Origin: Bacteroidia bacterium
GTDB lineage: Bacteria; Bacteroidota; Bacteroidia; Cytophagales; Flammeovirgaceae
Assembly (NCBI GenBank): GCA_030425505.1
Contig: JAUIAB010000001.1
Coordinates: forward strand, 248,001 to 312,000
Direction: 5' to 3'
DNA: 64,000 bases
Part shown: piece by piece, positions 28,658 to 51,197 of the stretch
Layout of the letters: the number at the start of each line of letters is the position of its first letter
Numbering within the stretch: position 1 is the first letter of the stretch
The notes under the pieces: generated by a model
Databases searched by the model: none
What the model was told of the DNA's origin: nothing
What the model saw: the letters and a program-made list of their open reading frames with translations, nothing else
Program-made: the position numbers and the translations under genes

Positions 28658-28687
28658 AAATAATGAATAATTCTATTTATTTGTATT

Positions 28688-29479
28688 GTGACAAAAGTTA
28701 AACCGAAAAAGCACCTTGGGCAACACTTTCTTAAAGATAGTTCTATTTCTAAAAGGATAGTAGATTCTGTAAGTCATCACTTGGGCTATAAGGATTTACT
28801 TGAAATAGGCCCAGGAACTGGAGCGCTAACTTCTATTCTCAAAGAGAGGTATTCTGATAACCTTAAAGTAGTTGAAGTAGACAAAGAGTCCATAGATTAC
28901 TTAAGAAGCAACCTTCTTTTAGAAGAAAATCAAATTATTGCTAAAGATTTTTTAAAGCTACAGTTGAGTGACTATTTTAAAGAACCCTTTGGAATTATAG
29001 GCAACTTACCCTATAATATTTCCTCTCAAATTTTCTTCAAAGTTTTGGAAAACAGAGACCTGATTCCAGAAACTGTTTGTATGATTCAAAAAGAAGTAGC
29101 AGATAGAATTTGTGCAGCACCTCCATCAAGGCAGTCTGGTATTCTCACCATCCTTATTCAGGCATTTTATGATGTAGAGTATTTATTTACAGTAAAACCA
29201 GATGCTTTTTTACCTCCTCCCAAAGTGCAATCCGCTGTTATTTCACTTAAAAGAAACACTAGAAAGAGCTTACCTTTTAGCGAAAAGCTTTTTACTAATG
29301 TGGTGAAAATGTCTTTCCAGGGAAGGAGAAAAAAGCTGAGAAACGCATTAAAAAGTATTACTGGTAACTTAACAGAAGAAGAAACTCACCCATTATTTTT
29401 CAAACGAGCTGAAGAATTAACCATAGAGAACTTTATTGAAATAACAACGTTCATAAAAACAAATAATAATGGAAAATGA
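28688..29479 (+). CDS. rsmA: 16S rRNA (adenine1518/1519-N6)-dimethyltransferase
   Basis: Methylates two adjacent adenines in helix 45 of 16S rRNA using SAM. 263 aa. Seen: KPKKHLGQHFLKD opening, SAM motif LLEIGPGTGALT, acidic VVEVDKES, catalytic NLPYNISSQIFF, and FLPPPKVQSAVISL; C-terminal helical domain present. GTG start; no nearby ATG upstream. Overlaps the rhodanese gene by 4 bp. Confidence 0.96.
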   Translation: MTKVKPKKHLGQHFLKDSSISKRIVDSVSHHLGYKDLLEIGPGTGALTSILKERYSDNLKVVEVDKESIDYLRSNLLLEENQIIAKDFLKLQLSDYFKEPFGIIGNLPYNISSQIFFKVLENRDLIPETVCMIQKEVADRICAAPPSRQSGILTILIQAFYDVEYLFTVKPDAFLPPPKVQSAVISLKRNTRKSLPFSEKLFTNVVKMSFQGRRKKLRNALKSITGNLTEEETHPLFFKRAEELTIENFIEITTFIKTNNNGK

Positions 29480-34365: not shown

Positions 34366-35313
34366 ATGGAAATAGAGAAAATATCGTGTCTAATAATAGG
34401 TTCTGGTCCTGCTGGGTATACTGCAGCAATTTATGCATCTAGAGCTGGTCTTTCACCAGTACTATACACTGGTAGCCAACCAGGTGGGCAATTGACTATT
34501 ACTACGGATGTAGAAAATTACCCTGGTTACCCTGATGGGGTTATGGGACCTGCTATGATGGAGGATTTTAAGAAGCAAGCGGAGAGGTTTGGAACGGATG
34601 TCAGAATGGGTATGATTACACATGCTGAGCTATCGGATAATAAGAAGATTTTAACGGTAGACAATGAGAAAAAAATAGAAGCTGAAACGGTAATTATATC
34701 TACAGGTGCTTCAGCAAAATGGTTGGGAATAGAATCGGAGCAAAGATTGAATGGGAAAGGTGTTTCTGCTTGTGCTGTATGTGACGGATTCTTTTACAAA
34801 GATATGGATGTAGCAGTGGTTGGCGGTGGTGATACCGCTGCTGAGGAAGCAAGTTACCTGGCAAAAATCTGTAATAAAGTATATCTATTAGTAAGAAGGG
34901 ATGAGATGAGAGCTTCTCAGATTATGCAAGAGAGGGTAAAAAAGCTTAGCAATCTTGAAATTTTATGGAATACAGAGATTGATGAAATTTTAGGTGACCA
35001 AGAAGTAGAAGGTATGAGAGTTAAAAGTACTGCCACTAATGAAATAGAGGAGTATAAAATAAGTGGGTTTTTTGTAGCAATAGGACACAAGCCTAATACA
35101 GATATTTTTGATGGTCAAATAAATATGAATGAGAGTGGTTATATAATAACCAAACCTGACTCTACGGAGACAAATATTAAGGGAGTGTTTGCCGCAGGGG
35201 ATGCCCAAGACTTTATTTACCGGCAAGCCGTGACGGCTGCAGGTACAGGTTGTATGGCTGCTCTGGAAGCAGAAAGGTATTTGGCTGCTATAGAAGCTAC
35301 TGTAGCTGTTTAA
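34366..35313 (+). CDS. trxB: Thioredoxin-disulfide reductase
   Basis: FAD/NADPH flavoenzyme that reduces thioredoxin. 315 aa, standard length. Seen: FAD motif IIGSGPAGYTAAIYASRAGL, redox-active CAVCDG (CxxC), NADPH motif AVVGGGDTAAEEASYL, HRRD-like VRRDEMRAS, and C-terminal FAD block GVFAAGDAQDFIYRQAVTAAGTG. Complete. Preceded directly by leader element B, and followed by the CCCGAAT-A-ATTCGGG dyad. Confidence 0.96.
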   Translation: MEIEKISCLIIGSGPAGYTAAIYASRAGLSPVLYTGSQPGGQLTITTDVENYPGYPDGVMGPAMMEDFKKQAERFGTDVRMGMITHAELSDNKKILTVDNEKKIEAETVIISTGASAKWLGIESEQRLNGKGVSACAVCDGFFYKDMDVAVVGGGDTAAEEASYLAKICNKVYLLVRRDEMRASQIMQERVKKLSNLEILWNTEIDEILGDQEVEGMRVKSTATNEIEEYKISGFFVAIGHKPNTDIFDGQINMNESGYIITKPDSTETNIKGVFAAGDAQDFIYRQAVTAAGTGCMAALEAERYLAAIEATVAV

Positions 35314-35377
35314 CCCGAATAATTCGGGACTTAATTTAATAGAAAAGGTAATTCTCTGATTACAAAGCAATTGATTA
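35314..35377 (+). repeat. Intergenic repeat, copy 1
   Basis: Begins with the dyad CCCGAAT-A-ATTCGGG directly after the trxB stop and continues GACTTAATTTAATAGAAAAGG and CTGATTACAAAGCAATTGAT. It matches 51135-51197 in order over about 64 bp. Possibly a transcription-end structure carried as a repeat. Confidence 0.5.
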
Positions 35378-36364: not shown

Positions 36365-36444
36365 TTTATTCTTTGGCTTATTATTAAAATTCTACTGTTA
36401 ATGCTTGATAATGAACATAAAAGCCTTTTAATCAAAATGAGATT

Positions 36445-36466
36445 TTGCCATTTTCGAATGGCTTTT
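36445..36466 (+). terminator. Probable terminator downstream of the hydrolase
   Basis: GCCATT-ttcg-AATGGC (36447-36462), a 6-bp stem with a UUCG tetraloop followed by TTTT. From here to the array start at 36634 there are 170 bp in which I see no gene and no attC-type half. Confidence 0.5.
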
Positions 36467-36633
36467 ACAACTGCTAATTGTTTGCCTGCTACAACGTTTT
36501 AACTCTAGTATTCTAACAAAATCTGTAATGATATCTACAATGCTAAAAATAGAATATTTATCATTTTACTACTGATTAACATTGTAATTAATAGATAAAA
36601 CATGGTTTTTATATTAATTTGGATTAACAATAA

Positions 36634-36643
36634 GTTGCCCACA
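36634..36643 (+). other. Left junction of the cassette array (recombination point between 36634 and 36635)
   Basis: GTTGCCCACA, the exact reverse complement of TGTGGGCAAC that opens attC1 at 37764. Upstream is TTGGATTAACAATAAGTT, with AAC-AATAA-GTT symmetry but no paired attC arm. It could be the attI site, a secondary insertion site, or a decayed attC. The position shows that the first cassette gene must start at the ATG 36647. Confidence 0.7.
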
Positions 36644-36646
36644 ATT

Positions 36647-37762
36647 ATGAAAAAGATTCGAACGCTAATATTATTACTTACTTTATTGACAATTTCGTTT
36701 AATGGATTCTCTCAAGAAGTGACATTTTTTAATGCCGATGGATTTTTTTCAATTGGAACACAATCAAACCGAACAGCTTCTATAACCTTATACGATATTG
36801 ACAACGACGGAGATTTAGATGCGCTTGTTGCAAATGGCAGACATTGGGCAGAACAGAATTATATTTATTACAATGATGGCAAAGGAGGTTTTAAAACAGC
36901 GCAACCCATCGGAAAAATCCTTGATGCTTCATATGCTATAAAAAGTGCTGACTTCAATAATGATGGATTTGTAGACATAGCCATAGCCAACGACAATATT
37001 CCGAATAAAATTTATTTTGGTTCTGCAAATGACAGCTTTGACAATGAAATTTCTTTTGGATCTTTAGCACCTTCAAGAAATCTTGAAATAGCAGATATTG
37101 ACAACGATGGAGATTTTGACCTAATACTTTCAAATAGAAAAGCCGTAAACGAAATTTGCCTTAATGACGGAAAAGGAAATTTTGAAAAAATCATCACTTT
37201 TGGATCTGATTCTGACCAAACAATTCAAACAAGAATCGTAGATATAAACAAAGACGGATTTTTAGACTTAATTACAGCAGAAAGACAAAGTAAAAACAAA
37301 ATTTATCTAAATGACGGAAAACAGAATTTTTTAAAAGTAATAGAATTTGGTAATGAAAAAGATGAAACCCGTTCTATTGATATTGGAGATTTTGACAAAG
37401 ATGGATTTTTAGATGTTGTAACAGGAAATTTAGGTTCAAAAAATAGCATTTATTTTGGCGACAAAAATTTGACTTATAAGCGAGTTTTCGTTTTCAAAGA
37501 AGAACGTCAGACTTCATCAATAAAAGTAGCAGACTTAAATCAAGATGGCTATTTAGATATTGTTGAGGGAAATTCAGAAGAACGGAATTATATTTATTTA
37601 GGCCAGAAAGATGGCTCGTTTATAGAAATTGGTTTGCGAGAAGACTTAAAAGATGACACTTATAACATTGAAATAGGAGATTTAAATAATGATGGATTAC
37701 CAGACATTGTTGAATCAAATTCAGGAACTTGGAATTTATATTATAGAACTCGTAAAAAATAA
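36647..37762 (+). CDS. Cassette C1: secreted FG-GAP/VCBS-repeat protein
   Basis: 371 aa from ATG 36647, giving a clean signal peptide (MKKIRTLILLLTLLTISFNG...SQ). An upstream in-frame ATG at 36602 lies outside the cassette junction and is rejected. The mature protein is seven FG-GAP/VCBS repeats with calcium-binding DxDxDG loops (DIDNDGDLDALV, DFNNDGFVDIAI, DINKDGFLDLIT, DLNQDGYLDIVE and others), forming a seven-bladed propeller like integrin alpha-type domains. No T9SS tail. The stop lies 1 bp before attC1. Probably a surface or secreted binding protein. Confidence 0.85.
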   Translation: MKKIRTLILLLTLLTISFNGFSQEVTFFNADGFFSIGTQSNRTASITLYDIDNDGDLDALVANGRHWAEQNYIYYNDGKGGFKTAQPIGKILDASYAIKSADFNNDGFVDIAIANDNIPNKIYFGSANDSFDNEISFGSLAPSRNLEIADIDNDGDFDLILSNRKAVNEICLNDGKGNFEKIITFGSDSDQTIQTRIVDINKDGFLDLITAERQSKNKIYLNDGKQNFLKVIEFGNEKDETRSIDIGDFDKDGFLDVVTGNLGSKNSIYFGDKNLTYKRVFVFKEERQTSSIKVADLNQDGYLDIVEGNSEERNYIYLGQKDGSFIEIGLREDLKDDTYNIEIGDLNNDGLPDIVESNSGTWNLYYRTRKK

Positions 37763-37763
37763 C

Positions 37764-37919
37764 TGTGGGCAACAACGTGTATAATTAATGGCTGGTTATC
37801 GCCTACTTGCAAAAATACTCGCGGATTTTCTACCTGCCTGCGGCAGGCAGGTTCGGTTTTTATTTGCTAAATTAGGTGCTTAAACACGCCACTAATCATA
37901 CACAAACACGTTAGCGTTC
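37764..37919 (+). other. attC1 (after cassette C1)
   Basis: R'' TGTGGGCAAC, L arm GTGTATAATTAATGGC pairs with GCCACTAATCATACAC (14 of 16), then R' GTTAGCGTTC at 37910-37919. The extra bases AAACAC on one side leave unpaired bases, as in folded attC bottom strands. The centre carries a 19-base palindrome (37833-37851) absent from its close relative attC6. Confidence 0.8.
37833..37851. repeat. 19-base GC palindrome inserted in the attC1 centre
   Basis: CCTGCCTGC-G-GCAGGCAGG. The flanking text (CGCGGATTTTCTA | TTCGGTTTTTA) is continuous in attC6 (48236-48258), so the palindrome is an insertion in an otherwise homologous site. Confidence 0.6.
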
Positions 37920-37947
37920 AGTATAAAAACCAGAAATTAACATAATT

Positions 37948-39201
37948 ATGAAAAGAATCCTGATTTTAAGTTTGACTTTTTTTATGTCATTTAATTCCTT
38001 ACTTGCAGATGATGCTCCAATTTGTGTTACTCATGGAGGAAATGTGAAACCGATAGAAAATAACGACATTCAAATGTATAGTGAGACCATAGATATAACA
38101 TTACTACCTACACATTATGAAGTCGAAGTTAACTACGTATTTAAAAATCACGGATCGGAACAAGAAGTTGTCTTGGGTTTCCCAAGTAGCTCACGTTTTG
38201 ATATGTCCTTCAAAGCCTTCGATGGAAAAACAGAACTTGAAATTTCAAAAATGAAATCAGATTGGGTCTTTAAGCCAGAGAATGGAATGAGTTGTCAATA
38301 TATTTCAAACCCAATTGACCAATTTGAATGTCATACTGTACTTTTCAATGCCGGAGAAACAAAAAATATTAGAAATACTTATAAGCAAATGTATGACCCA
38401 GCATATAGAGATGGACCTCAAACATCTTTTTACTATATAGTAACAACAGGTGCCTTTTGGAAAGATGAAATAACATCTATTGAAATCCGAGTGCATACAG
38501 AAAATGCACCATTACATTTTGATTTAGAAAATGGATTGGTTAATAAAGAAAAAACTTCGATTATTAATTATTATGATAAAATTGAAAATATTGAACCAAC
38601 AGAGGATTTATATTTTGGGATAAATTACAAGAACTATTTAACTCCATGGGGAGCAACATCAATATTGAACTCATCCGGTAAAATTGATTATGGAATTTCA
38701 AACTTAGACGACAAAAGTATAAAAACTGCTTGGGTCGAAGGAGAGAGCGAGTCAGGAATTGGGACTATTATAAAATATAAGAATCCAAGCAGAAAAGCAA
38801 ATACAATAAATGGAATTGAAATAATTAATGGATATGCAAAAAATTACAATACATTCATTGAAAACAATCGAGTTGCTTTTTTGAAAGTTTCAGTAATCAA
38901 TAAGCTTTATAACGAAGACCTTATGGATAGTGAATTTTGGGATATTAAAGAATTCTTTAACGGAAAGTATAAAACAAAAGAGGAATACTTATTTACACTA
39001 GAAGACACACCATATGTTCAATATCTTGAATTTGACTCACCAATTAAAGCTAAAGAAATTGAATTTGAAATATTAAAAGTCTATAAAGGTACTAAATATG
39101 ATGATACAGCAATTTCAGAAATTCATATATGTGAAAATGGAGCAAGGTACAAAGGGGAAACGAGTAATATTCCGGTCGATTTGATTGAATTAAAAGAATA
39201 A
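37948..39201 (+). CDS. Cassette C2: secreted protein, DUF4424-like N-domain plus probable NADase-type glycan-binding domain
   Basis: 417 aa. Signal peptide (to about residue 20, ...NSLLA). N-terminal beta-rich region (residues 25-230: ITLLPTHYEVEVNYVFKNHG, NIRNTYKQMYDP) resembling DUF4424-type domains. The C-terminal part (about 245-415) has KTAWVEGESESGIGTIIKY and NGIEIINGYAKN, which recall the NADase-type glycan-binding (discoidin-like) domain. No catalytic motif seen. It starts 37 bp after the junction and its stop lies 1 bp before attC2. Exact role unknown; carbohydrate binding is inferred. Confidence 0.72.
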   Translation: MKRILILSLTFFMSFNSLLADDAPICVTHGGNVKPIENNDIQMYSETIDITLLPTHYEVEVNYVFKNHGSEQEVVLGFPSSSRFDMSFKAFDGKTELEISKMKSDWVFKPENGMSCQYISNPIDQFECHTVLFNAGETKNIRNTYKQMYDPAYRDGPQTSFYYIVTTGAFWKDEITSIEIRVHTENAPLHFDLENGLVNKEKTSIINYYDKIENIEPTEDLYFGINYKNYLTPWGATSILNSSGKIDYGISNLDDKSIKTAWVEGESESGIGTIIKYKNPSRKANTINGIEIINGYAKNYNTFIENNRVAFLKVSVINKLYNEDLMDSEFWDIKEFFNGKYKTKEEYLFTLEDTPYVQYLEFDSPIKAKEIEFEILKVYKGTKYDDTAISEIHICENGARYKGETSNIPVDLIELKE

Positions 39202-39202
39202 C

Positions 39203-39337
39203 GAACGCTAACAATGTGTAAAAACAATAGCCGTAAAAGTGCGTATACAGGCGGTTTTAGCCCGCTTCAAAATTGTAACGTTTGATAGATCCGAAGCCCG
39301 CAATCGCCTACTACGCATACACTCAACGTTAGCTACC
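39203..39337 (+). other. attC2 (after cassette C2)
   Basis: R'' GAACGCTAAC (39203-39212), exact complement of GTTAGCGTTC opening cassette C2. R' GTTAGCTACC at 39328-39337. Its central block TTTGATAGATCCGAAGCCCG is shared with attC4. Confidence 0.8.
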
Positions 39338-39419
39338 ATTAAAACCAAAATGTGCTCATCATTCAGCGATTTGTGTTAATGAGCAAAATAAATGCAGCAT
39401 AGTTTTGCAATAAAACAAA

Positions 39420-40328
39420 ATGAGCGAACATATAATACATTCAAAATCAATTACAGAAATTCGAACGGTGTTTGGTTTGGACAAGCCAACACACCCTTTA
39501 ATTACCATACTTGATACAGAAAAACTCGCTTATGGAGAAGAAACCGTGGGAATGAGATTTTCTTCTGATTTATACTGTATTGCTCTAAAGGATTCTAACT
39601 GTGGAATAGACTACGGTCGAAATTCCTACGACTTTGATGATGGGGTCTTGATTTTTACTGCACCAAAACAAATAATAACAGTAACCAAACCGCAAGAATT
39701 GAATCAAGTAAAAGGTTGGATGCTCTACTTCCATCCTGACCTTATTAGAAACACTGTGCTAGGTTCAAAAATAGATTCATACAACTTTTTCAACTACGAA
39801 GTTTATGAAGCATTGCATCTTTCCGAAAATGAGCAAAATACCCTTAATCAAATTGTTCAGTTAATTCAAGAAGAAATCAAAGAGCGAATAGACAATCATA
39901 GTCAGCAAGTATTGGTTTCCAATATAGAATTATTACTGAATTACAGTAAACGTTTTTACGAAAGGCAATTCAATACTCGTTCTGCTAGTCACATTGACAT
40001 AGTTTCCAAAGTGGAATTGTTACTCAAGGACTATTATAAAGAAAATCAACTCATAGAAAAAGGACAGCCAACCATTCAATATTTAGCAGACCATTGTCAT
40101 TTATCGGCTAGTTATTTAAGTGACCTTTTAACAAAAGAAACAGGGCGTTCTGCCAAAGATCACATCAATGACTTTTTAGTAGATAAAGCAAAACATTTAT
40201 TACTAAGTTCTACTGATACAATAAGCGGAATAGCTTACACGCTTGGCTTTAATTATCCGCATTATTTTGGTAGGTTATTCAAACAAAAAACTGGTAAAAC
40301 TCCACAAGAATACAGACAATTGAATTAG
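39420..40328 (+). CDS. Cassette C3: AraC-family transcriptional regulator
   Basis: 302 aa. N-terminal cupin-like sensing domain (about 30-150), C-terminal AraC DNA-binding domain with two helix-turn-helix units: TIQYLADHCHLSASYLSDLL and ISGIAYTLGFNYPHYFGRLFKQKTGKTPQEYR (split; final motif FGRLFKQKTGKTPQEYR). Likely controls the two dehydrogenase genes that follow it in the same cassette. A -7-like TAGTTTTG at 39400-39407 suggests its own promoter, 12 bp before the ATG. No -33 match. Confidence 0.9.
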   Translation: MSEHIIHSKSITEIRTVFGLDKPTHPLITILDTEKLAYGEETVGMRFSSDLYCIALKDSNCGIDYGRNSYDFDDGVLIFTAPKQIITVTKPQELNQVKGWMLYFHPDLIRNTVLGSKIDSYNFFNYEVYEALHLSENEQNTLNQIVQLIQEEIKERIDNHSQQVLVSNIELLLNYSKRFYERQFNTRSASHIDIVSKVELLLKDYYKENQLIEKGQPTIQYLADHCHLSASYLSDLLTKETGRSAKDHINDFLVDKAKHLLLSSTDTISGIAYTLGFNYPHYFGRLFKQKTGKTPQEYRQLN

Positions 40329-40458
40329 AGAAAAGGAAGCAAAAACAGCTTCCTTTTCTTTTATCTGCGATTTGTGTTTAACCTTCCCTTTTTCGTGTTA
40401 ATCCGCCCATTTTATCAATCGGATATTTGTTTCATCAAATAATTAAAAAACAAAGAAG

Positions 40459-41334
40459 ATGAAACATAAAATTTTAGTAACAGGTGCAAGTGGAGCTTTT
40501 GGAAGTTTGGCTTGTATTCAATTAGCCGAAAACGGACATCAGGTGGTAGGAACAATGCGTTCCATTTCAGGTAAAAATGAAACTATTGCCAATGAACTTA
40601 AATCCAAAGGTGTTTCATTGGTGGAAATGGATGTAACCAATGAAGAAAGTGTGAATGCAGGTGTAAAATCAGCCATAGAAATAATGGGAGGATTAGATAC
40701 CGTTTTCAATAATGCAGGTATCGGAGCAAATGGAATTCTTGAATGTTTTACATCAAATGACATCCAAAAAATGTTTGATGTGAATGTATTTGGAGTTCAA
40801 CGACTGATGAGAGCCGTTTTACCTCATTTAAGACAGCAGGGTAAAGGAACAATCATTCACACCTCAAGCTGTATTGGTAGAGTAACCACGCCTTTTTTAG
40901 CTTCTTATTCAGCTTCAAAATACGCATTAGAATCGTTAGCAGAAGGTTACAGAGCTGAACTTTCAGGCTTTGGAATAGAATCGTGTATCGTAGAACCAGG
41001 CGGATTTCCTACAGGCTTTATGAATGGAATGATAACACCAAGCGATACGAAACGATTAACCGAATATGGTGAAATGGCAAACCTGCCAGAAACGGCATTA
41101 GATGGTTACGTTGCTTATGTAGAGTCTATCCCCGAACAAAGACCTGAACGAGTGGCAGAAGCAGTAGTCGGATTGGTCAATACATCGTTTGGCGAGAAAC
41201 CATTCAGAACGGTAGTTGATTTTTCAGGATTAAAAGCAGGAATTGAGAACTACAATAAAGTGCTGAATGAAACCACAAAAGCTATCTACACAGCCAACGG
41301 AGTTGATAATTTATTGACATTAAACAAAGACTAA
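40459..41334 (+). CDS. Cassette C3: short-chain dehydrogenase/reductase A
   Basis: 291 aa Rossmann enzyme. Seen: VTGASGAFGSLACIQLA (TGxxxGxG), DVTNEESVNA, NNAGIGANG (NNAG) and catalytic Ser...YSASK in IIHTSSCIGRVTTPFLASYSASKYALES. Classical SDR, NADP(H) likely from VGTMRS. Substrate unknown. 130 bp after araC; overlaps nothing, 1 bp before the next SDR gene. Confidence 0.9.
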   Translation: MKHKILVTGASGAFGSLACIQLAENGHQVVGTMRSISGKNETIANELKSKGVSLVEMDVTNEESVNAGVKSAIEIMGGLDTVFNNAGIGANGILECFTSNDIQKMFDVNVFGVQRLMRAVLPHLRQQGKGTIIHTSSCIGRVTTPFLASYSASKYALESLAEGYRAELSGFGIESCIVEPGGFPTGFMNGMITPSDTKRLTEYGEMANLPETALDGYVAYVESIPEQRPERVAEAVVGLVNTSFGEKPFRTVVDFSGLKAGIENYNKVLNETTKAIYTANGVDNLLTLNKD

Positions 41335-41335
41335 A

Positions 41336-42136
41336 ATGAATAAAACAATATTGATAACAGGGGCAAGTAGCGGAATAGGAAAAGCAACTGCCCTACATTT
41401 TCAAAAACAAGGCTGGAATGTAATTGCAACAATGCGTTCCCCTGAAAAAGAGACAGCATTAAACGCATTTGAGAACGTACAACTCGAAAAGTTGGATGTG
41501 CTTGATTTAACATCCATTGAGCAAGCCATCAAAAACGGAATTTCAAAATTCGGAAAAATTGATGCTTTGGTAAACAATGCAGGATATGGCGCTTATGGAC
41601 CTTTAGAAGCATTCCCAAGAGAAAACATTATCAAACAATTCAATACGAATGTCATCGGATTAATGGATGTGACCAGAGCTATTATTCCACATTTCAGACA
41701 ACATAAAAGTGGTGTCATTGTAAATATTTCATCCATTGGTGGCCAAATGACATTTGCCTTGGGTTCACTTTATCACGGAACTAAATTTGCCGTAGAAGGC
41801 ATTTCGGAATCATTGCATTATGAAATGAAAGAAATTGGTGTAAAAGTCAAGATAGTAGAACCAGGAATGATTGCAACTGACTTTGGAGGTCGTTCATTTG
41901 ATTTTCAAGCGGGTGACATTCCGGAATACCAACCGATTATTGATGCCTTAATGAAACAATGGCAGAATCCGAATAATACAGTTTCACCGCCAAGTTTGGT
42001 CGCTGAAGTAATTTATACCGCTGTAACTGATGGAACATATCAATTGAGATACCGAGCAGGGGAAGATGCAAATTTCCTGTTGGATAACAGAAAGAAAATG
42101 ACGGATGCTGAGTTTTTTGAAATGATGAGCAACTAA
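41336..42136 (+). CDS. Cassette C3: short-chain dehydrogenase/reductase B
   Basis: 266 aa. ITGASSGIGKATALHFQKQG, LDVLDLTSIEQA, NNAGYGAYGPLEAF, and catalytic Ser-Tyr-Lys in NISSIGGQMTFALGSLYHGTKFA (Tyr-x-x-x-Lys). Related to SDR A, so it arose by duplication or both were gathered as a functional pair. Starts 1 bp after SDR A. Ends 18 bp before attC3. A three-gene cassette of nearly 3 kb is large for an integron cassette. Confidence 0.9.
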   Translation: MNKTILITGASSGIGKATALHFQKQGWNVIATMRSPEKETALNAFENVQLEKLDVLDLTSIEQAIKNGISKFGKIDALVNNAGYGAYGPLEAFPRENIIKQFNTNVIGLMDVTRAIIPHFRQHKSGVIVNISSIGGQMTFALGSLYHGTKFAVEGISESLHYEMKEIGVKVKIVEPGMIATDFGGRSFDFQAGDIPEYQPIIDALMKQWQNPNNTVSPPSLVAEVIYTAVTDGTYQLRYRAGEDANFLLDNRKKMTDAEFFEMMSN

Positions 42137-42154
42137 TTGGAAAAATAAAACAAA

Positions 42155-42290
42155 GGTAGCTAACACGATGTATAAGCAATAGCGGTTCGAGTTAGCACTC
42201 AAACCGTTTTTGTATAAATTAAAATATATTGCAAACTGAAAAGCAGGTGATTAAAACCCGCTACTGTTCTTATACCAAACGTGAGCTTTA
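42155..42290 (+). other. attC3 (after cassette C3)
   Basis: R'' GGTAGCTAAC (42155-42164), exact complement of GTTAGCTACC opening cassette C3. L arm GTATAAGCAATAGC with GCTACTGTTCTTATAC. R' GTGAGCTTTA (42281-42290), with GTG replacing GTT. Confidence 0.8.
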
Positions 42291-42363
42291 ATAATAAGAG
42301 CGCACTGCAAATTTGATACTTTAACGGAATTTTTTTAAATTACGTCAAATAAATGACGGTATT

Positions 42364-43497
42364 ATGGATTATTTAGTCAGGGATTTATCAGATAATATAA
42401 TAAGGAAATTGCAATCAAATAAGGTTGTGATAGTATTTGGTGCTCGAAGAGTTGGAAAAACAGTTCTCGTTAAAGAGATACTTGATAAAATTAACGAACC
42501 AGTTTTATCCTTAAATGGAGAAGATATAAATGTACACGATAAACTTGCAATTAGAAGTGTTGAGAAGTATAAGCAAATTTTGGGTTCCTATAAATTACTT
42601 TACATCGATGAAGCACAAAAGATTCCTGAAATTGGATTGAAACTTAAACTTATGATTGATGAAATTGAAGATTTGAAAATTATCATTTCTGGTTCATCAT
42701 CATTTGATATTCACAAAGATGCTGGCGAACCATTAACTGGTAGAAAATATACTTTCAATTTGTTTGCGCTTTCAGAGAATGAATACAACCAGATTGAGAA
42801 TACTATCGAAAAGATTGATAAGGTAAGAGAAAGACTAGTGTTTGGAAACTATCCAGAACTACTACATCTCCCTGATCGAGAGGATAAAATAGATTATTTA
42901 AACGAAATGGTAAGTTCGTACCTGTTAAAAGATATTCTTGTTTATGAAAACATCAAGAACTCTCAAAAAATATTTAACCTTTTGCGTTTAATAGCTTTTC
43001 AGATTGGAGGAGAAGTTTCGCTTCAAGAATTAGGAAAACAACTCGGAATTAGTAAAAACACTGTCGAAAAATATCTTGACTTATTGAGTAAAGTATTCAT
43101 TCTTCATAAAGTAGAAGGATTTAGTAGGAATTTGCGAAAGGAAATAACTAAAAATTCAAGGTGGTATTTCTTGGATAATGGAATACGAAATGCTGTAATT
43201 GCAAATTTCAATCCCATTGAATCTAGAAATGACATTGGAATCTTGTGGGAAAACTACATGATTAGTGAAAGGCTTAAATATCAAGAATACAAAAGACTAT
43301 CTTCCAATAATTATTTCTGGAGAACCTATGAACAGCAGGAAATTGACTGGGTTGAAGAAAGAGATGGTACTTTGTTTGGATATGAGTTTAAATGGAAAGA
43401 ATCAAAGGTGAAAATTCCAACTCAATGGAAAAACACATATCCTGATTCATCATTTGAAGTGATTAATAAGGATAATTTTGAGAACTGGTTAAAATAA
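42364..43497 (+). CDS. Cassette C4: AAA ATPase with DUF4143 C-terminus
   Basis: 377 aa. Walker A VFGARRVGKTVLVKEIL (about residue 23-39), Walker B LLYIDEAQKIPEIG, and arginine-finger region RKYTFNLFALSENEY; then the DUF4143 part (about 190-377) with winged helix QELGKQLGISKNTVEKYLDLL and a C-terminal DWVEERDGTLFGYEFKW that looks like a PD-(D/E)xK-type remnant. This AAA_14/DUF4143 family is widespread and often mobile; activity is unknown. A CGTCA-aataaa-TGACG dyad lies 10-30 bp before the ATG. Stop 4 bp before attC4. Confidence 0.88.
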   Translation: MDYLVRDLSDNIIRKLQSNKVVIVFGARRVGKTVLVKEILDKINEPVLSLNGEDINVHDKLAIRSVEKYKQILGSYKLLYIDEAQKIPEIGLKLKLMIDEIEDLKIIISGSSSFDIHKDAGEPLTGRKYTFNLFALSENEYNQIENTIEKIDKVRERLVFGNYPELLHLPDREDKIDYLNEMVSSYLLKDILVYENIKNSQKIFNLLRLIAFQIGGEVSLQELGKQLGISKNTVEKYLDLLSKVFILHKVEGFSRNLRKEITKNSRWYFLDNGIRNAVIANFNPIESRNDIGILWENYMISERLKYQEYKRLSSNNYFWRTYEQQEIDWVEERDGTLFGYEFKWKESKVKIPTQWKNTYPDSSFEVINKDNFENWLK

Positions 43498-43501
43498 TTA
43501 C

Positions 43502-43637
43502 TAAAGCTAACAATGTATATACAAAATAGGCGAAATAGTAGTAAATTCAACGGTTGTAGCCCGCTTCAATTTTATAACGGTTTGATAGATCCGAAGCCCG
43601 CAATCGCCTACTTTGCATATACTAAACGTGAGCAAGC
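43502..43637 (+). other. attC4 (after cassette C4)
   Basis: R'' TAAAGCTAAC (43502-43511) pairs with GTGAGCTTTA opening C4 at 9 of 10. The L arm is the best in the array: GTATATACAAAATAGGCG with CGCCTACTTTGCATATAC. R' GTGAGCAAGC (43628-43637). Its centre is homologous to attC2. Confidence 0.82.
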
Positions 43638-43652
43638 TGATAACCGACACCA

Positions 43653-44195
43653 ATGAAACTAGATAAACTTAAATTAAGAAACTTCAGAAGCTACTCTCAA
43701 GAAACTGAAATTGAAGTTGCCGACCTAAACGTAATCATTGGAAAAAATGATGTTGATAAATCCTCAATCTTGGAAGCTCTAGATATTTTCTTTAATGGAA
43801 AGCCTGATAAAAATGATTTGTGCATTAACAACGATAACGGAAGAATCGAAATAACCTGCACATTCACCGATTTGCCTAATGAACTAATATTGGATGACAC
43901 AATAGCAACAAGTTTGGCAGATGAGTATCTTTTAAATTCTGATGGAAAACTAGAAATCAAAAAGTCATTTCCAATTTCCGCAGCAGGAAGTATATCAGAA
44001 GAGTTAGTTATAATTTGCGAATATCCTAATCATAACGATTTAGCGGATTTACTTTCAAAGAAAAGAACGACTCTACAGCTACAATTTGAGGAACTAGGAA
44101 TTGACCCAGAAGGAGTTAATAGAACAAAAAGCAAGGAACTAAGAAATGCCATTCGTAATCACTTTTACGAGGATGGACAAATAATACCAATTTAA
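43653..44195 (+). pseudogene. Cassette C5: truncated OLD/RecF-like ATPase
   Basis: 180 codons of an SMC-like N-terminal ATPase segment: KLRNFRSYSQETEIEV and VIIGKNDVDKSSILEALDIFFNG. The Walker A should read GxNxxGKSS; here the Gly before Lys is Asp. Only the N-terminal lobe of a 500-650-aa family is present: no signature, Walker B or TOPRIM domain follows. With the lost cassette end (see C5) it is a remnant, possibly from an OLD-type defence nuclease. It starts 16 bp after attC4. Confidence 0.75.
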
Positions 44196-44286
44196 TTGTA
44201 TAATACAGAAAGTAGAAAAAGGTTGCTGAGAACAAAAGGGTTACAAGTGCATAAAATTTCTGATTTTTTGTCAACGTTTCCATAAT

Positions 44287-45705
44287 TTAATTTTCAAGTT
44301 CTTTAACCGCTTTTTGGGCAGACGGAATACTTGGATTAATCTCTAAAGCTTTTTTGTAGGCTTGCAGAGCTTCTACTTTTCTTCCTGTTTTCAGCAAAGC
44401 CTCTCCATAACTATCCCAACAGTTGCCAATATTAGGAAATAGCTCTGTGTTCAATTTGAAAATATCTAGTGCTTCATCTAACTTTTCGTCAAAAAACAAG
44501 TCATAACCCAAATTATTAAGTATTAAATCCTTTGGATCTCCTTCAAACCAATTTGAAGTCAGGTCATCAAAGTTATTCTTAACATATTCGATACCTTTTT
44601 CTTTATAGGTTTTATAAATATTGAGCTTTGCAGGCAATCTAGGAGTTTCAGGTTCTTTGCCGTTGACAATGTGCAAAATTCCGATAGCAATTTTTTCTGC
44701 AACAGGCTCATCCATATTTGCAAAAACAACTATGCTGATGTCATCTGCCAGCATTTCTAAATGAACGGTATTGGCGCCATTAAAACCACCGGCTAACGGA
44801 ATTCCCGCTCCCTTTTTTTTATAAATTGGTTCAATACTTGTAAAAAATCCGTCCTTGTTTTTCACTTCTTTGCTAAACATTTCGTCAGTATATAAATATG
44901 TTCTGTAGAACTTTTGTATATCATAAGCATCAGCATAAAACCCGCCATCAGATCTTGGCTCTGAAATAAACATTTCATTATCTTCATATCCCCTAAAAGT
45001 TTTCATATAACCGATTGCTCTGTTGGATATTTCTTTTACATTTCGCGTAACAAGACTCTCTAATTTCAAAGGTTTTGCAATTCGCTCTTTAACATTTTGG
45101 GTATACCTTTTACCTGTTACTTGCTCAATGATTGCTCCAAGAATGATGTATCCAGCATTTGAGTATTCATTCTCAGCTCCAGGCTGAAACATTAAGTTCA
45201 TCTCTTTGATGATAGGTAAAATCCCCTGAATATTCTTTTTGTCATAGGACAAATCAAAAAATTCAGGACTGTTATAATCTCCAAAACCAGAGGTGTGATT
45301 GAGCAAGTGGTCAATCGTTATGTCTTTTGCATAATTTTGTTTAAACCCATCAAGGAAATCGACCATTTTAGAATCAAAACGCAACTTTCCTTCATCTATC
45401 AATTGAAGAACAATTGCTCTTGTAAAAGTCTTGTTCATACTCCCAATGACAAATTTCGTTTCCAAGGTGTTTGGAGTATTCGTTCCTCTTTTAGCTAAAC
45501 CAAATGCTTTTTCAAAGAAAGGTTTGCCATGTTCGGAAATCAAAACTACACCCGAAAAAATGCCCAAATCAATATACTCTTTAACCAATTCGTCTGTCTT
45601 TTGACTGATGTCTTTCTTTTTTAGATGGTCTGAAGAAGATTTACTTTGTCCATTACATGCAACCAACTGAAAGGATGCAAGAAAAATAAATAAGTATTGT
45701 TTCAT
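44287..45705 (-). CDS. Cassette C5: serine hydrolase (beta-lactamase/PBP fold) with TPR tail, lipoprotein
   Basis: 472 aa from ATG 45705; the longer frame to 45747 would hide the signal. Lipobox FQLVAC (Cys near 18). Beta-lactamase-like domain with SxxK (GSMNKTF), YxN (EYSNAGY) and HTSGFGDY; then about 90 residues of TPR (LDEALDIFKLNTELFPN, KVEALQAYKKALEINPS). Resembles class C-type esterase/peptidase proteins rather than a resistance enzyme. Transcribed against the array direction. Divergent from lytS over a 199-bp region with three TTTGTACC copies. Confidence 0.88.
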   Translation of the reverse strand: MKQYLFIFLASFQLVACNGQSKSSSDHLKKKDISQKTDELVKEYIDLGIFSGVVLISEHGKPFFEKAFGLAKRGTNTPNTLETKFVIGSMNKTFTRAIVLQLIDEGKLRFDSKMVDFLDGFKQNYAKDITIDHLLNHTSGFGDYNSPEFFDLSYDKKNIQGILPIIKEMNLMFQPGAENEYSNAGYIILGAIIEQVTGKRYTQNVKERIAKPLKLESLVTRNVKEISNRAIGYMKTFRGYEDNEMFISEPRSDGGFYADAYDIQKFYRTYLYTDEMFSKEVKNKDGFFTSIEPIYKKKGAGIPLAGGFNGANTVHLEMLADDISIVVFANMDEPVAEKIAIGILHIVNGKEPETPRLPAKLNIYKTYKEKGIEYVKNNFDDLTSNWFEGDPKDLILNNLGYDLFFDEKLDEALDIFKLNTELFPNIGNCWDSYGEALLKTGRKVEALQAYKKALEINPSIPSAQKAVKELEN

Positions 45706-45779
45706 TTTTATGAGATTTAATTCACAATACCACAAAATTAGGGACATCTTGAATGGTGATTTTTTCTAAGTTATGAGTC

Positions 45780-45896
45780 GGTACAAAGAAGTGATGAAAG
45801 CGACAAAAAAAGTGATATCTCTTTTCACAACCGATTTGTACCATTTAATCAACTATTCATCACATGCTTCTTAACATAAATCTTTCTCTTTGTACC
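45780..45896. promoter_or_regulatory. Three TTTGTACC/GGTACAAA boxes between the hydrolase and lytS
   Basis: GGTACAAA at 45780-45787 (minus orientation of TTTGTACC), TTTGTACC at 45835-45842 and 45889-45896, spaced 55 and 54 bp. The outer pair extends to a 10-bp inverted repeat GGTACAAAGA/TCTTTGTACC. Could be binding sites of the adjacent LytTR regulator controlling both divergent genes, or promoter -7 neighbourhoods that share TTTGTA. Confidence 0.4.
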
Positions 45897-45904
45897 TTTC
45901 GCTT

Positions 45905-46933
45905 ATGAGAAAATGGATAGAAGCAATTATTCACCTACTTTTTTGGTGCTGCTCCACTTGGTTGATAGCTTTGGGCTTCTCTATTCAATCACACGAAATT
46001 GAAGTAATAAATGGTATAGAAGCAGTAAAAACTGTCAGAAACAATGGACTGATTTACCAACTAATCATTTGTATATTTTTTTCAATGATTGCTTTTTACA
46101 TCAATGCCTTGATGATATTCCAAAGAAATCAATCTGAAAGTATAAAAAGCTCGATTTGGTTTATCGTTTTGACTTTTTCAATTTTAGCTATTTTGATATA
46201 TGCCCTTACAGAAATTAGATTATTTAGCGGTACACCACCTATACCAAAACAGATAGCCTTTGGAGTTGCTATTTTTTATTTTTCCATATCAGTAGCGTAT
46301 GGTTTGGTAAAAAATTCGATATTCAATGAACAGCGCCACCAACAGCTTATCATTGATAAGAAACAAGCCGAATTAAATCTGCTCCGCAATCAATTACAAC
46401 CCCACTTTTTGTTTAATGCGTTGAACAACTTGTTGTCAATGGTAAGCCGTGTTGACAACCCAAAATTGATAAGTTCTTTTGGCCAACTCTCCCAACTTTT
46501 AAGATTTGTTATCGAAGAAAATAAAACAGAAATGACACCTATTTCTGACGAAATTCAATTCCTGAAGAATTATATCGACTTGCAAAAATTGCGGTTTGAA
46601 GAAGAAGAAGTAGCAGTTCAGTTTCATGTAAAAGGAAAATATGACGAACAGAAAATTGAATCCGGATTGTTCATTCCGTTTGTGGAAAATGCGTTTAAAT
46701 ATGGTACTGAACCCGAAAAATCCACAAAAATTGATATTGAATTTGATTTATCGAATGTCGATTCCGTTCAGTTTAAAATTAAAAACGAAAAGATGATGAC
46801 CAGCACAAACAGAATTGGAACAGGCATAGAAACCACGAAGAAACGATTGGAATTAATTTATCCCGACAATCACGAATTAAAAATCCAAAATACAGATGAT
46901 TTTATTGTCCAATTAAAGATATGCACCCAATGA
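45905..46933 (+). CDS. Cassette C5: LytS-type sensor histidine kinase
   Basis: 342 aa from ATG 45905 (a TTG five codons upstream is less likely). Four transmembrane helices in the first 130 residues; His_kinase domain LNLLRNQLQPHFLFNALNNLL with the phosphoacceptor His; HATPase region with FIPFVENAFKYGTEP (N box) and GTGIETTKKRLELIYP (G box). Works with the overlapping LytTR regulator. Signal unknown. Confidence 0.93.
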   Translation: MRKWIEAIIHLLFWCCSTWLIALGFSIQSHEIEVINGIEAVKTVRNNGLIYQLIICIFFSMIAFYINALMIFQRNQSESIKSSIWFIVLTFSILAILIYALTEIRLFSGTPPIPKQIAFGVAIFYFSISVAYGLVKNSIFNEQRHQQLIIDKKQAELNLLRNQLQPHFLFNALNNLLSMVSRVDNPKLISSFGQLSQLLRFVIEENKTEMTPISDEIQFLKNYIDLQKLRFEEEEVAVQFHVKGKYDEQKIESGLFIPFVENAFKYGTEPEKSTKIDIEFDLSNVDSVQFKIKNEKMMTSTNRIGTGIETTKKRLELIYPDNHELKIQNTDDFIVQLKICTQ

Positions 46934-47616
46934 GAGCGATCATAGTTGATGACGAACCCAAAGCGATTGAACTGCTGAGAAGCTATTTGAATCATTTTAG
47001 TAGTATTGAATTGGTAGGTACATATAGAAATGGCTTGAAAGCTTTTGAATTCTTATCGAAAGAGCCAGTCGATTTGATTTTGCTCGATATCAATATGCCC
47101 CACATTTCGGGAATAACCTTATCCAAAATGTTGCCCGAAAATGTAAAAGTGATTTTCACTACAGCGTATTCAGAATATGCTGTTGAAAGCTACGAAATAC
47201 AAGCGGTGGACTATCTCGTGAAGCCAATAAATTTGGAGCGTTTCACAAAATCAATAATTAGGGTAATATCATCACAGGAACAATCAGCCGAAAAGAAAAA
47301 CCAAATGATATTTGTTAAAAGTGGATTTGAAACGTATAGACTTGAAAGTGCCTCTATATTGTTTTTAGAAAAAGACGGTAATTATATGAATTACCATTGT
47401 ATGAATCAAAAGATTATAGCAAGGGAAACAGTTCAAGAAGCGATTCAAAAATTACCTGACAATTTTGTTCAGACACACAAATCATACATTGTAAATTTAG
47501 AAAATATTAAAAGCTATACATCCAATGAATTGAGTATTGGAAAAGAAAAAATATCCATTAGCGAAACATATAAAAATAAAGTTTTAGAAAGATTGGAAAA
47601 TAATGTCAGTCGCTAA
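46930..47616 (+). CDS. Cassette C5: LytTR-family response regulator
   Basis: 228 aa from the ATG at 46930, which overlaps the lytS stop as ATGA; ATG 46921 adds three residues. Receiver domain: IIVDDEPKAIELLRSY, phospho-acceptor in LILLDINMPHISG, TTAYSEYAVESYEIQAVDYLVKPI (Thr/Lys). LytTR DNA-binding domain (about 130-228: FVKSGFETYRLESASILFLEKDGNY split; FVQTHKSYIVNLENI). The stop TAA lies inside the R'' box of attC5. Confidence 0.94.
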   Translation: MRAIIVDDEPKAIELLRSYLNHFSSIELVGTYRNGLKAFEFLSKEPVDLILLDINMPHISGITLSKMLPENVKVIFTTAYSEYAVESYEIQAVDYLVKPINLERFTKSIIRVISSQEQSAEKKNQMIFVKSGFETYRLESASILFLEKDGNYMNYHCMNQKIIARETVQEAIQKLPDNFVQTHKSYIVNLENIKSYTSNELSIGKEKISISETYKNKVLERLENNVSR

Positions 47617-47742
47617 CAATGTATAAAAATAATAGCCAAGTTAGTAGTAAATTCACATGCTTTAGCTTGCTTAAACTTACCGCAACTTGACAGGAAAGTG
47701 CCACACAATCGGCTACTATTCTTATACTAAACGTTGGCAAAC
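47608..47742 (+). other. attC5 (after cassette C5)
   Basis: R'' AGTCGCTAAC (47608-47617); L arm GTATAAAAATAATAGCC pairs with GGCTACTATTCTTATAC (15 of 17); R' GTTGGCAAAC (47733-47742). Unlike the others, its R'' does not match the start of its cassette (GTGAGCAAGC): only the core agrees. Confidence 0.8.
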
Positions 47743-47759
47743 ATATACAAAACAGAACG

Positions 47760-48167
47760 ATGAAAATAAAATTTAACGAAAACGAAAAGTCGATTGAAAT
47801 AAAAGACGGATTAAAAAAGCAATATTTATTAATGAATATATCACTGATTTTTACGCTTGTCAATTCTGTTCTTTTTCCTTTATTTGTGTTGGACAAAAAA
47901 CAAATGGAATGGGTGGGTTTTATTTTGATAATTCTTGGCATTTTTTCAATCGTTTTGCTTACATATCAAATTCTTAAAAAAACAGCATCTGAAAAATTGA
48001 ATATATCCGAAATCAGCTCGCTTAACGAAAAGCAAGTCTTTGGTCAAAAAAGGTTCAATCTGAAATTGAAAAACGGAAAGTTTCGAGATTTAATAGAAAT
48101 GAAAAATGAATCCGATATAATAAAAACTAAAGAGATGTTCGAAAATATAGGAATCAAAATAAGTTGA
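47760..48167 (+). CDS. Cassette C6: small membrane protein
   Basis: 135 aa. Two hydrophobic helices (about 23-45, 52-70) between a short N-terminal strand region and a C-terminal soluble domain of about 65 residues with beta-rich pattern (FGQKRFNLKLKNGKFRDLIEM), like bacterial PH-domain membrane proteins. Function unknown. Starts 26 bp after the junction; stop 11 bp before attC6. Its single-ORF cassette (573 bp) is the most classical in size. Confidence 0.7.
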   Translation: MKIKFNENEKSIEIKDGLKKQYLLMNISLIFTLVNSVLFPLFVLDKKQMEWVGFILIILGIFSIVLLTYQILKKTASEKLNISEISSLNEKQVFGQKRFNLKLKNGKFRDLIEMKNESDIIKTKEMFENIGIKIS

Positions 48168-48178
48168 ATAAAAAAACG

Positions 48179-48315
48179 ATTTGCCAACAACGTATAAAAT
48201 TAATTGCTTGTTTCGAGCCTACTTACGAAAATTCCGCGGATTTTCTATTCGGTTTTTACTTGCAAAGTTAGTTGCTAAACCACGCAACTAATCTTATACA
48301 AAACCGTAGGGCATT
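48179..48315 (+). other. attC6 (after cassette C6)
   Basis: R'' ATTTGCCAAC (48179-48188) pairs with GTTGGCAAAC opening C6 at 9 of 10. L arm GTATAAAATTAATTGC with GCAACTAATCTTATAC. R' GTAGGGCATT (48306-48315), an unusual GTA. Centre homologous to attC1 without its palindrome. Confidence 0.8.
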
Positions 48316-48321
48316 TGAAAA

Positions 48322-48972
48322 ATGAGACACCTTCCAGAAAATATTGAGCAATACTTTTTTGACACCATTTATGGAAAGGTGACCTTGGCGGGTTTTGAAC
48401 AATGGGTTTACACAAATAAGGAATTAGAAAAACTTGTTGGGGAAGATGACTATTTGGAACTTATTTCTTTCAACTACAAAAAGAATGGAGCAAAATATGA
48501 ATTAGTTAATTTGCTTTCGGACAAATATGTTGACTTAGGAGAATATGAAAAATGGAAGTTACTCAATAGCCTCAAAATAGCATTGAAACGTGATGAACGA
48601 CTTGCACCGATTCTCCGCGAATTTTATGACTTGTACTGTCGTGGATACGTATTCTTAAATGATTTGGGACTAGGATACGGATTGACAATTGAAGTCCCCC
48701 CTTCACCGAAATATAAGGTCGACACTTGGGAGGAACTTACGGACTCTGAAAAGAAAGAATTGCTTGATAGTTTCTATCCTCAACTTGAATTTGACATAAA
48801 AAGAACAATTGATTGGATAGAAAATGGAAAACTAATATTCACAGGTAAAAAGGATGAAATTGGTCATTATGAATACGAAGACCTTAGGACAGTGAAGGAA
48901 CGTGAATCAACTGTATGGAGGGAAGTAGAACGTGATGATACAACAGGATTCAAAGCATTTGAAAGTACCTAG
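48322..48972 (+). CDS. Cassette C7: acidic soluble protein of unknown function
   Basis: 216 aa, no signal or membrane segment, strongly acidic (many Glu/Asp pairs: LEKLVGEDDYLEL, DTWEELTDSEKKELLDS). The opening FFDTIYGKVTLAGFEQWVYTNKELEKLV resembles small immunity-type proteins found in cassette or polymorphic-toxin contexts; that comparison is from impression only. The junction is 7 to 16 bp before the ATG. No toxin gene is adjacent. Confidence 0.6.
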   Translation: MRHLPENIEQYFFDTIYGKVTLAGFEQWVYTNKELEKLVGEDDYLELISFNYKKNGAKYELVNLLSDKYVDLGEYEKWKLLNSLKIALKRDERLAPILREFYDLYCRGYVFLNDLGLGYGLTIEVPPSPKYKVDTWEELTDSEKKELLDSFYPQLEFDIKRTIDWIENGKLIFTGKKDEIGHYEYEDLRTVKERESTVWREVERDDTTGFKAFEST

Positions 48973-48993
48973 AAATATTGAAAGAAGAAAAGA

Positions 48994-49030
48994 AACGCCC
49001 TACAACAACAGCTATAAGCAAGCTAAAACA
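48994..49030 (+). other. Half attC site at the right end of the array (attC7 remnant)
   Basis: AACGCCCTAC (48994-49003) pairs with GTAGGGCATT opening C7 at 9 of 10, then AACAGCTATAAGCAAGC like the left arm of the other sites. No matching right arm or GTTRGC box follows, so the array ends in a truncated site. Confidence 0.6.
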
Positions 49031-49455: not shown

Positions 49456-49590
49456 GGGTGTACGACAAATTTCACTCAAGCTACTTTTTTAATAAATCTT
49501 TAACGTGATCCCATTTACTACTTTTGTATCCATAGGTTTTTGCTCAAGTATATCTCTTTGTCCTTAAAAAGTGAAATTTGTCGTACACCC
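49456..49590. repeat. 135-bp MITE-like element with 21-bp terminal inverted repeats
   Basis: The first 21 bases (GGGTGTACGACAAATTTCAC + T, 49456-49476) are the exact reverse complement of the last 21 (49570-49590); 93 bp without ORF lie between. Flanks read GCTACC and TAGC, so symmetry continues imperfectly outside. No clear target duplication. Likely a non-autonomous transposable element or IS remnant. The rest of the gap to 49683 is AT-rich and shows nothing else. Confidence 0.65.
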
Positions 49591-51049: not shown

Positions 51050-51134
51050 AATTTTTATTGATTTTTAGATTCTAAAAAATATACTCGAAGTTAGAAGTCA
51101 TTGTGGTATATTCCAATCAAACTTGATTTCATAA

Positions 51135-51197
51135 CCCGAATAATTCGAGACTTATTCTACTAAAAAGAGTAACTCACTGACCACAAAGTGGTTGATA
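51135..51197 (+). repeat. Intergenic repeat, copy 2
   Basis: CCCGAATAATTCGAGACTTATTC then AACTCACTGACCACAAAGTGG..., matching copy 1 at 35314-35377 in order over about 63 bp with a high rate of substitution. The hairpin ACCAC-aaa-GTGGT is new here. Lies between hutH and the peroxiredoxin gene, which run on the minus strand. Confidence 0.5.

Follow-up and report, generated by a model that had tools for sequence, protein, structure and literature searches.

What moves the genes of a cassette array that has no intact recombinase gene beside it? The question is raised by the window analysed here, a 64,000-nucleotide stretch of a Bacteroidota genome (Cytophagales, Flammeovirgaceae; contig JAUIAB010000001.1, positions 248,001 to 312,000; 95.7% complete, 41 contigs), in which seven cassettes are delimited by six complete attC-like sites and a single half site. 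Our reading is that the window very probably holds a degenerate representative of an integron-like system that is widespread in Bacteroidota and run by a Xer-type recombinase. Its recombinase gene is reduced to an N-terminal stub, and therefore this copy would be movable only in trans. Integrons are defined by the integrase IntI and its extra domain, and the best reading of our results is that the system is excluded by IntI-based definitions. We found no description of it in the literature searched, which did not extend to bioRxiv and most subscription journals. Integrons have been described as very rare in Bacteroidetes, where Salinibacter ruber M1 is named as carrying a complete one (IntegronFinder 2.0 survey, PMC9024848).

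A conserved hairpin at the end of each cassette

An original prediction, made from the letters of the window alone, described six complete sites plus a half site, with opening GCYAAC-type and closing GTTRGC-type boxes and a paired long arm (GTATAA/TTATAC), and held that the boxes depart from the textbook RYYYAAC/GTTRRRY. All of this was borne out, including the position of each site: the arm is present in all six full sites, the strict consensus is not kept, and the anatomy is that of attC sites (R and L helices, an unpaired spacer and a GTT box). The sites are about 130 nucleotides long, and folding the six-site alignment yields one conserved hairpin, with compensatory changes in 11 of the 22 pairs predicted from this first alignment, which was not fitted to a model. 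In an alignment of 36 sites fitted to a covariance model, 95% of cells pair and 17 of 24 pairs have changed on both sides; sliding the partner abolishes the signal.

The bottom-strand hairpin comprises a basal R helix of about 10 bp, an asymmetric unpaired spacer (3 versus 5-6 nucleotides) and an L helix that is at most 18 bp long. No conserved extrahelical base or bulge was found in the consensus L helix, whose arm pairs through. Two of its positions are G.T on the bottom strand and an A.C mismatch on the top strand, in all six window sites and in 34 and 35 of the 36 aligned sites, so the bottom strand would be favoured. This strand is the stabler one in five of the six window sites, which were picked without a model, and in 86 of 96 stems, a count that is partly biased since most of these stems belong to sites detected with a model in which pairing of the bottom strand raises the score.

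The original prediction called for a covariance-model search for further sites, and they do recur. The model built from the six window sites (R1) recovers sites outside its training set elsewhere in the genome, with E-values down to 1.7e-24, and was refined to a second model from 36 sites (R2). Of the 22 sites that the two models place in the genome, six lie in the window and 13 on contig C24, while C39, C22 and C17 hold one each. A search of the sites against Rfam gave no match. Two trivial readings were rejected. Motifs resembling rho-independent terminators, which had been named as a possible refutation, are not enriched (5 motifs, 5.8 expected from shuffles), and R2 is no over-general palindrome detector, as it produced a single hit in 12 non-Bacteroidota genomes that carry recombinase homologs. 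That hit is a weak one, in a Nanoarchaeota metagenome-assembled genome (G666:C30:11077, E=3e-6); this archaeon has a 40% recombinase homolog.

The two ends of a cassette match each other

In integrons the crossover falls inside the R box, so that the two halves of a junction stem from different cassettes, and the end boxes of one cassette match, having been joined in the circle. The same arrangement is found here. The first ten or so bases of a cassette mirror its own last box and not the box across the junction, as in GTTGCCCACA and TGTGGGCAAC at the ends of the first window cassette (10/10) or in the pairs GTTAGCGTTC...GAACGCTAAC and GTTAGCTACC...GGTAGCTAAC. Over 20 cassettes of the genome, 175 of 200 bases match (permuted mean 107, maximum 142 in 200,000 permutations); over 72 cassettes of other Bacteroidota arrays the match is 651 of 720 (mean 393, maximum 447 in 50,000). 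The matching length, about 10 bp, exceeds the classical 7-bp box.

The original prediction was right about the types of box; a correction is that each closing box finds its pairing partner in the opening box at the far end of its own cassette. We dropped pairing inside one site because it is weaker (5.7 of 10 bases, versus 8.75 of 10 within a cassette). Matching of this kind is the pattern expected of cassettes that circulate as closed circles. Together with an exact duplication described below, it lends indirect support to excision as circles and strand-specific insertion.

A recombinase relic and its intact sister

Is the window array a bare cluster of sites? The original prediction reported no tyrosine recombinase among the reading frames of the window and took the array to be either a cluster of attC sites lacking integron-integrases (CALIN) or served in trans. 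No intact recombinase gene is present in the window, but a decayed remnant lies at the head of the array (36538-36419, minus strand), followed by an attI-like sequence. The remnant corresponds to codons 1-40 of an enzyme encoded on C24, with one stop and the rest of the gene gone, and is identical to the start of the C24 gene at 31 of 33 nucleotides.

The C24 array runs along the minus strand and is headed at its 5' end by the intact gene for this tyrosine recombinase of 275 amino acids (28536-29363, plus strand), divergent from the cassettes. Beyond this gene are chromosomal genes, read from the sequence as ATP-binding cassette (ABC) transporter and gliding-type. Between recombinase and first cassette stands ATTTGGATTAACAATAA^GTTG, and the same 21 bases precede the first window cassette. 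Because this attI core and a decayed recombinase copy both precede that cassette, we regard the window as a platform that lost its recombinase. The array would thus be more than a bare cluster of sites, namely a platform that has degenerated, and the service in trans foreseen by the original prediction is supported.

One 763-bp cassette occurs twice on C24, with 100% identity and unrelated flanks. Identity begins at the upstream R box and stops at G^TT(G); judging from these borders, it is a unit copied site-specifically, too recently for mismatches to have arisen.

A candidate attI adjoins the integrase gene in related arrays as well, at the point where the first cassette starts. In 19 of 25 arrays the first cassette, whose start matches its own end box at 9-10 of 10 bases, begins no further than about 160 bp from the stop codon of the recombinase; the candidates of loci L139, L143, L174, L132, L140 and L178, far from the integrase, may reflect missed upstream sites and were left out of this count. 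About ten arrays have an almost perfect palindrome, roughly 18-24 bp in length, 5-7 nucleotides upstream of this start (for example, AATAAACACACTAGTGTGTTTATT-CACTT-GTTG).

The recombinase is not IntI

The original prediction looked to an intI gene with the extra alpha-helical domain elsewhere in the genome. This expectation failed: a profile search of the genome with TIGR02249 gave no match above the cut-off, and the enzyme at hand is a shorter, Xer/XerA-like one. The profile scores it at 182 bits, versus a cut-off of 265, and in the genome search the match splits into two pieces. The C24 enzyme is a simple two-domain tyrosine recombinase (Pfam PF13495 and PF00589) with no insertion. Relative to VchIntIA (2A3V), with which the profile alignment falls into two pieces, its family is without about 42-43 residues that lie between profile positions 174 and 194, whereas XerA aligns end to end. 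In array-associated enzymes 64-65 residues separate the catalytic K from HxLRH, versus 106 in IntI1.

In a tree of 85 sequences, IntI forms a separate clade (support 100/100) with the array enzymes outside it, and the XerC/D-like enzymes of the genome itself are distant from the array recombinase. The AlphaFold model of L128, which belongs to this family (mean predicted local distance difference test score, pLDDT, 87), fits XerA (4a8e, Z 22.5) and IntI4 (2A3V, Z 22.1, 30% identity) about equally well, and a C-terminal SPLD-like motif is common to array recombinases and IntI1. The recombinases of L145, L125, L149, L143 and L176 carry about 100-300 additional residues N-terminal to the SAM-like domain, an extension that matches no Pfam family and is missing from the C24 enzyme. 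Other tyrosine recombinases of the genome occur as pairs, about 8.5-8.9 kb apart, on C33 (237818 and 246703) and C38 (2154 and 10670), each pair being found twice; with their equal or nearly equal scores, they are a large repeated element.

Distribution across Bacteroidota

At 80 named loci with recombinase homologs, R2 finds 80 sites downstream of the recombinase, all in cassette-forward orientation, and three upstream (p=4e-29; 655 kb searched upstream, 419 kb downstream). Carriers include Arenibacter, Winogradskyella, Algibacter, Seonamhaeicola, Aquimarina, Arundinibacter, Planktosalinus, Cytophagales and Bacteroidales. Contigs stop within 2 kb downstream at 31 of the 80 loci, as expected where repeats break assemblies. 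Among the site/recombinase pairs listed on shared contigs outside the genome studied, the recombinase is upstream of the sites and in the same direction in all 22 that were picked.

Sites at E<=1e-8 were found by covariance model in 156 of 295 Bacteroidia genomes. The recombinase is present in 146 of the 295 and occurs together with sites in 113 (odds ratio 8.4, p=3e-17), only a few candidates having been scored per genome and many assemblies breaking at these loci. Canonical IntI is found in one of the 295 Bacteroidia genomes; phylum-wide it occurs in 105 of 395 genomes, only one of which belongs to Bacteroidia.

The window array and its cargo

The array and the sequence at its head comprise the following features, the order being that of the window:

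36419-36538, minus strand: decayed N-terminal integrase remnant (tblastn with the C24 integrase, E=3.5e-10, 57% identity)
36617-36637, plus strand: attI-like stretch, 21/21 identical to the sequence preceding the first C24 cassette; crossover expected between G36634 and T36635
36634-37773, plus strand: cassette 1, FG-GAP repeat protein (Pfam), open reading frame (ORF) to 37762, start codon probably 36647
37764-37915, plus strand: attC-like site 1; predicted to fold on the bottom strand, loop with an additional palindrome of about 20 nucleotides
37910-39212, plus strand: cassette 2, NADase_transloc-domain protein (Pfam PF25302), ORF 37948-39201; own-box match 10/10
39203-39333, plus strand: attC-like site 2
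39328-42164, plus strand: cassette 3, AraC-type regulator at 39420-40328 (Pfam) and two short-chain-dehydrogenase-like ORFs at 40459-41334 and 41336-42136 (read from sequence only); own-box match 10/10
42155-42286, plus strand: attC-like site 3
42281-43511, plus strand: cassette 4, AAA_14/DUF4143 ATPase, ORF 42364-43497; own-box match 9/10
43502-43633, plus strand: attC-like site 4
43628-47617, plus strand: cassette 5; own-box match only 6/10
43653-44195: cassette 5, truncated AAA_15/AriA-like gene (AriA/OLD-like ATPase; Pfam/PADLOC)
44287-45747, minus strand: cassette 5, serine-hydrolase-like gene (read from sequence)
45890-46933: cassette 5, LytS-like kinase (read from sequence)
46921-47616: cassette 5, LytTR response regulator (Pfam/PADLOC)
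47608-47738, plus strand: attC-like site 5
47733-48188, plus strand: cassette 6, small hypothetical protein, ORF 47760-48167; own-box match 9/10
48179-48312, plus strand: attC-like site 6, R' = CGTAGGGC
48306-49003, plus strand: cassette 7, hypothetical protein of 216 amino acids, ORF 48322-48972; own-box match 9/10 (GTAGGGC/GCCCTAC)
48994-49021, plus strand: half attC site at which the array ends, made up of R'' and the start of L'' (CGCCCTACAACAACAGCTATAAGCAAGC); no R' follows, the remainder being lost

The seven cassettes of the original prediction are all bounded by sites, but cassette 5 is probably two cassettes fused by deletion, since it breaks the own-box rule and begins with a truncated gene. 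The cassette 4 ATPase belongs to the PADLOC candidate defence family PDC-S01 (E=4.7e-156). A search for a source of cassette 7 in other species gave only distant homologs, one with a weak site nearby. Scanning the window array for a common promoter (Pc) gave 63 predictions, not clearly more than the 55.5 (sd 7.6) in shuffles. Just past the array end, at 49456-49590, is a 135-bp element resembling a miniature inverted-repeat transposable element, whose 21-bp terminal inverted repeats (GGGTGTACGACAAATTTCACT) are perfect. A 65-nucleotide direct repeat (78%; TAACCCGAATAATTCGGGACTTA...) flanks the array region at 35311-35375 and 51132-51196, each copy adjoining a housekeeping gene.

The cargo of C24 includes a DNA methyltransferase, type I specificity subunits, a SoFic-like protein and a PtuA/Ppl-like ATPase (Pfam/PADLOC). 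A HigBA-like pair of toxin-antitoxin type, read from the sequence, also lies within this sister array (L042, 4909-5496); such pairs occur in classical large integrons. On a mobilizable plasmid of Flagellimonas marinaquae (NZ_CP092416.1; L203, 10813-13724), two sites (E=1.5e-13 and 4e-9) enclose a dihydrofolate-reductase-family gene as a cassette whose ends match at 9/10; erm(F) adjoins it, as does a recombinase of 53% identity that bears the annotation 'xerA: site-specific tyrosine recombinase/integron integrase'.

Proposed mechanism and alternative explanations

In the system we propose, a cassette would carry a single gene or a small group of genes, most of them in the same orientation, with an attC-like site behind them whose bottom strand forms a hairpin. 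On this folded strand a XerA/Xer-like tyrosine recombinase that lacks the IntI insertion would carry out recombination in the R box, with the crossover between G and TT, either joining cassettes to the attI adjoining its own gene or excising circles in which a cassette's own two box halves are paired. The window array would be served in trans, most likely by the intact C24 enzyme with its identical attI core. Folding in vivo, the crossover chemistry, the head recombinase as the agent and the service in trans are what we infer from the patterns above.

Could an ordinary CALIN account for the array, a canonical IntI having built it whose gene has since disappeared or escaped the draft assembly, with the XerA-like gene a bystander? 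The genome is incomplete and fragmented, the site anatomy is attC-like and CALINs are common in bacteria (PMC9024848). We nevertheless consider this quite unlikely: the genome has no IntI above the cut-off, the single Bacteroidia genome with IntI stands against the 156 that carry sites, a non-IntI recombinase heads arrays across the class, and the relic at the head of the window array derives from such an enzyme. It is also unlikely that a true cassette array is moved by some other enzyme (XerC/D of the host, for instance, or a different tyrosine recombinase) and that the head gene is linked for other reasons, for example as a regulator or passenger. Several further tyrosine recombinases exist in the genome, some recombinase homologs sit at loci without sites, and there is the precedent of the Vibrio CTX phage, which relies on host XerCD (PMC4792948); yet the position and direction of the head gene are consistent across distant genera, the co-occurrence with sites is marked and a candidate attI lies immediately 3' of the gene. 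That the sites are palindromic, AT-rich and intergenic would suit repeats, terminators or MITE-like elements that lie by chance between genes, no cassettes being moved. We give this reading, which the permutation tests already contradict, next to no credence, as box identity holds within cassettes rather than within repeats, and as the exact C24 duplication, the terminator counts and the head recombinase speak against it.

Several observations weigh against a cassette system run by the Xer-type head recombinase. Recombination of the cassettes is itself something we infer from sequence, and the strand preference carries the bias mentioned above. At E<=1e-75, 43 of the 156 site-bearing genomes are without the recombinase, and 33 recombinase-bearing genomes are without sites at E<=1e-8. 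Array-associated recombinases are interspersed in the tree with homologs near which no array was seen, and in relatives the integrase is mostly co-directional with the cassettes, unlike in C24 and in canonical integrons.

We further think it reasonably likely that this is a phylum-wide system whose integrase family, apart from IntI, and palindromic attI are its own and whose sites mark the strand by conserved wobble pairs; it would have been invented independently or else be a survivor from before the IntI insertion. If so, a cassette-capture system would be invisible to IntI-based surveys. IntegronFinder would presumably be blind to these sites, because its definition is IntI-based (PMC9024848). 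With attC-like sites in more than half of the sampled Bacteroidia, arrays headed by a different recombinase and a cargo that includes defence, toxin-antitoxin-like and restriction genes, the system implies a large unmapped route of gene exchange, including one mobilizable plasmid, in a phylum dominant in many environments. The origin of single-strand cassette recombination would become testable, a system without I2 serving as the test.

Comparison with known systems

The arrays share with integrons and CALINs co-directional cassettes that end in folded imperfect palindromes, a GTT crossover box, a favoured bottom strand, a recombinase and attI at the 5' head, box complementarity within cassettes, and accessory and defence cargo. 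Unlike in integrons, the recombinase has no IntI-specific insertion and falls outside the IntI clade, is mostly encoded in the direction of the cassettes and often carries an N-terminal extension. The sites differ too: the R helix is about 10 bp instead of 7, the boxes depart from RYYYAAC/GTTRRRY, and the L helix has two near-invariant G.T pairs and no conserved extrahelical base. The window, with its six sites and a half site, has at least the two attC sites without IntI nearby that make a CALIN, yet a non-IntI relic heads the array. Because its recombinase is not the IntI that defines integrons, we do not class the system as an integron proper, although it is integron-like in its working.

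With XerA, XerH and XerCD the array enzyme shares sequence and fold, the K-to-H spacing and end-to-end profile alignment; in contrast to them, it is found at the heads of arrays with attC-like sites and has an SPLD-like end, as in IntI1. Its position at cassette arrays argues for a role other than the resolution of chromosome dimers at dif. VchIntIA/IntI4 (2A3V) is equally close in fold and shares the C-terminal SPL motif, but has about 43 extra residues that are absent from the array recombinase.

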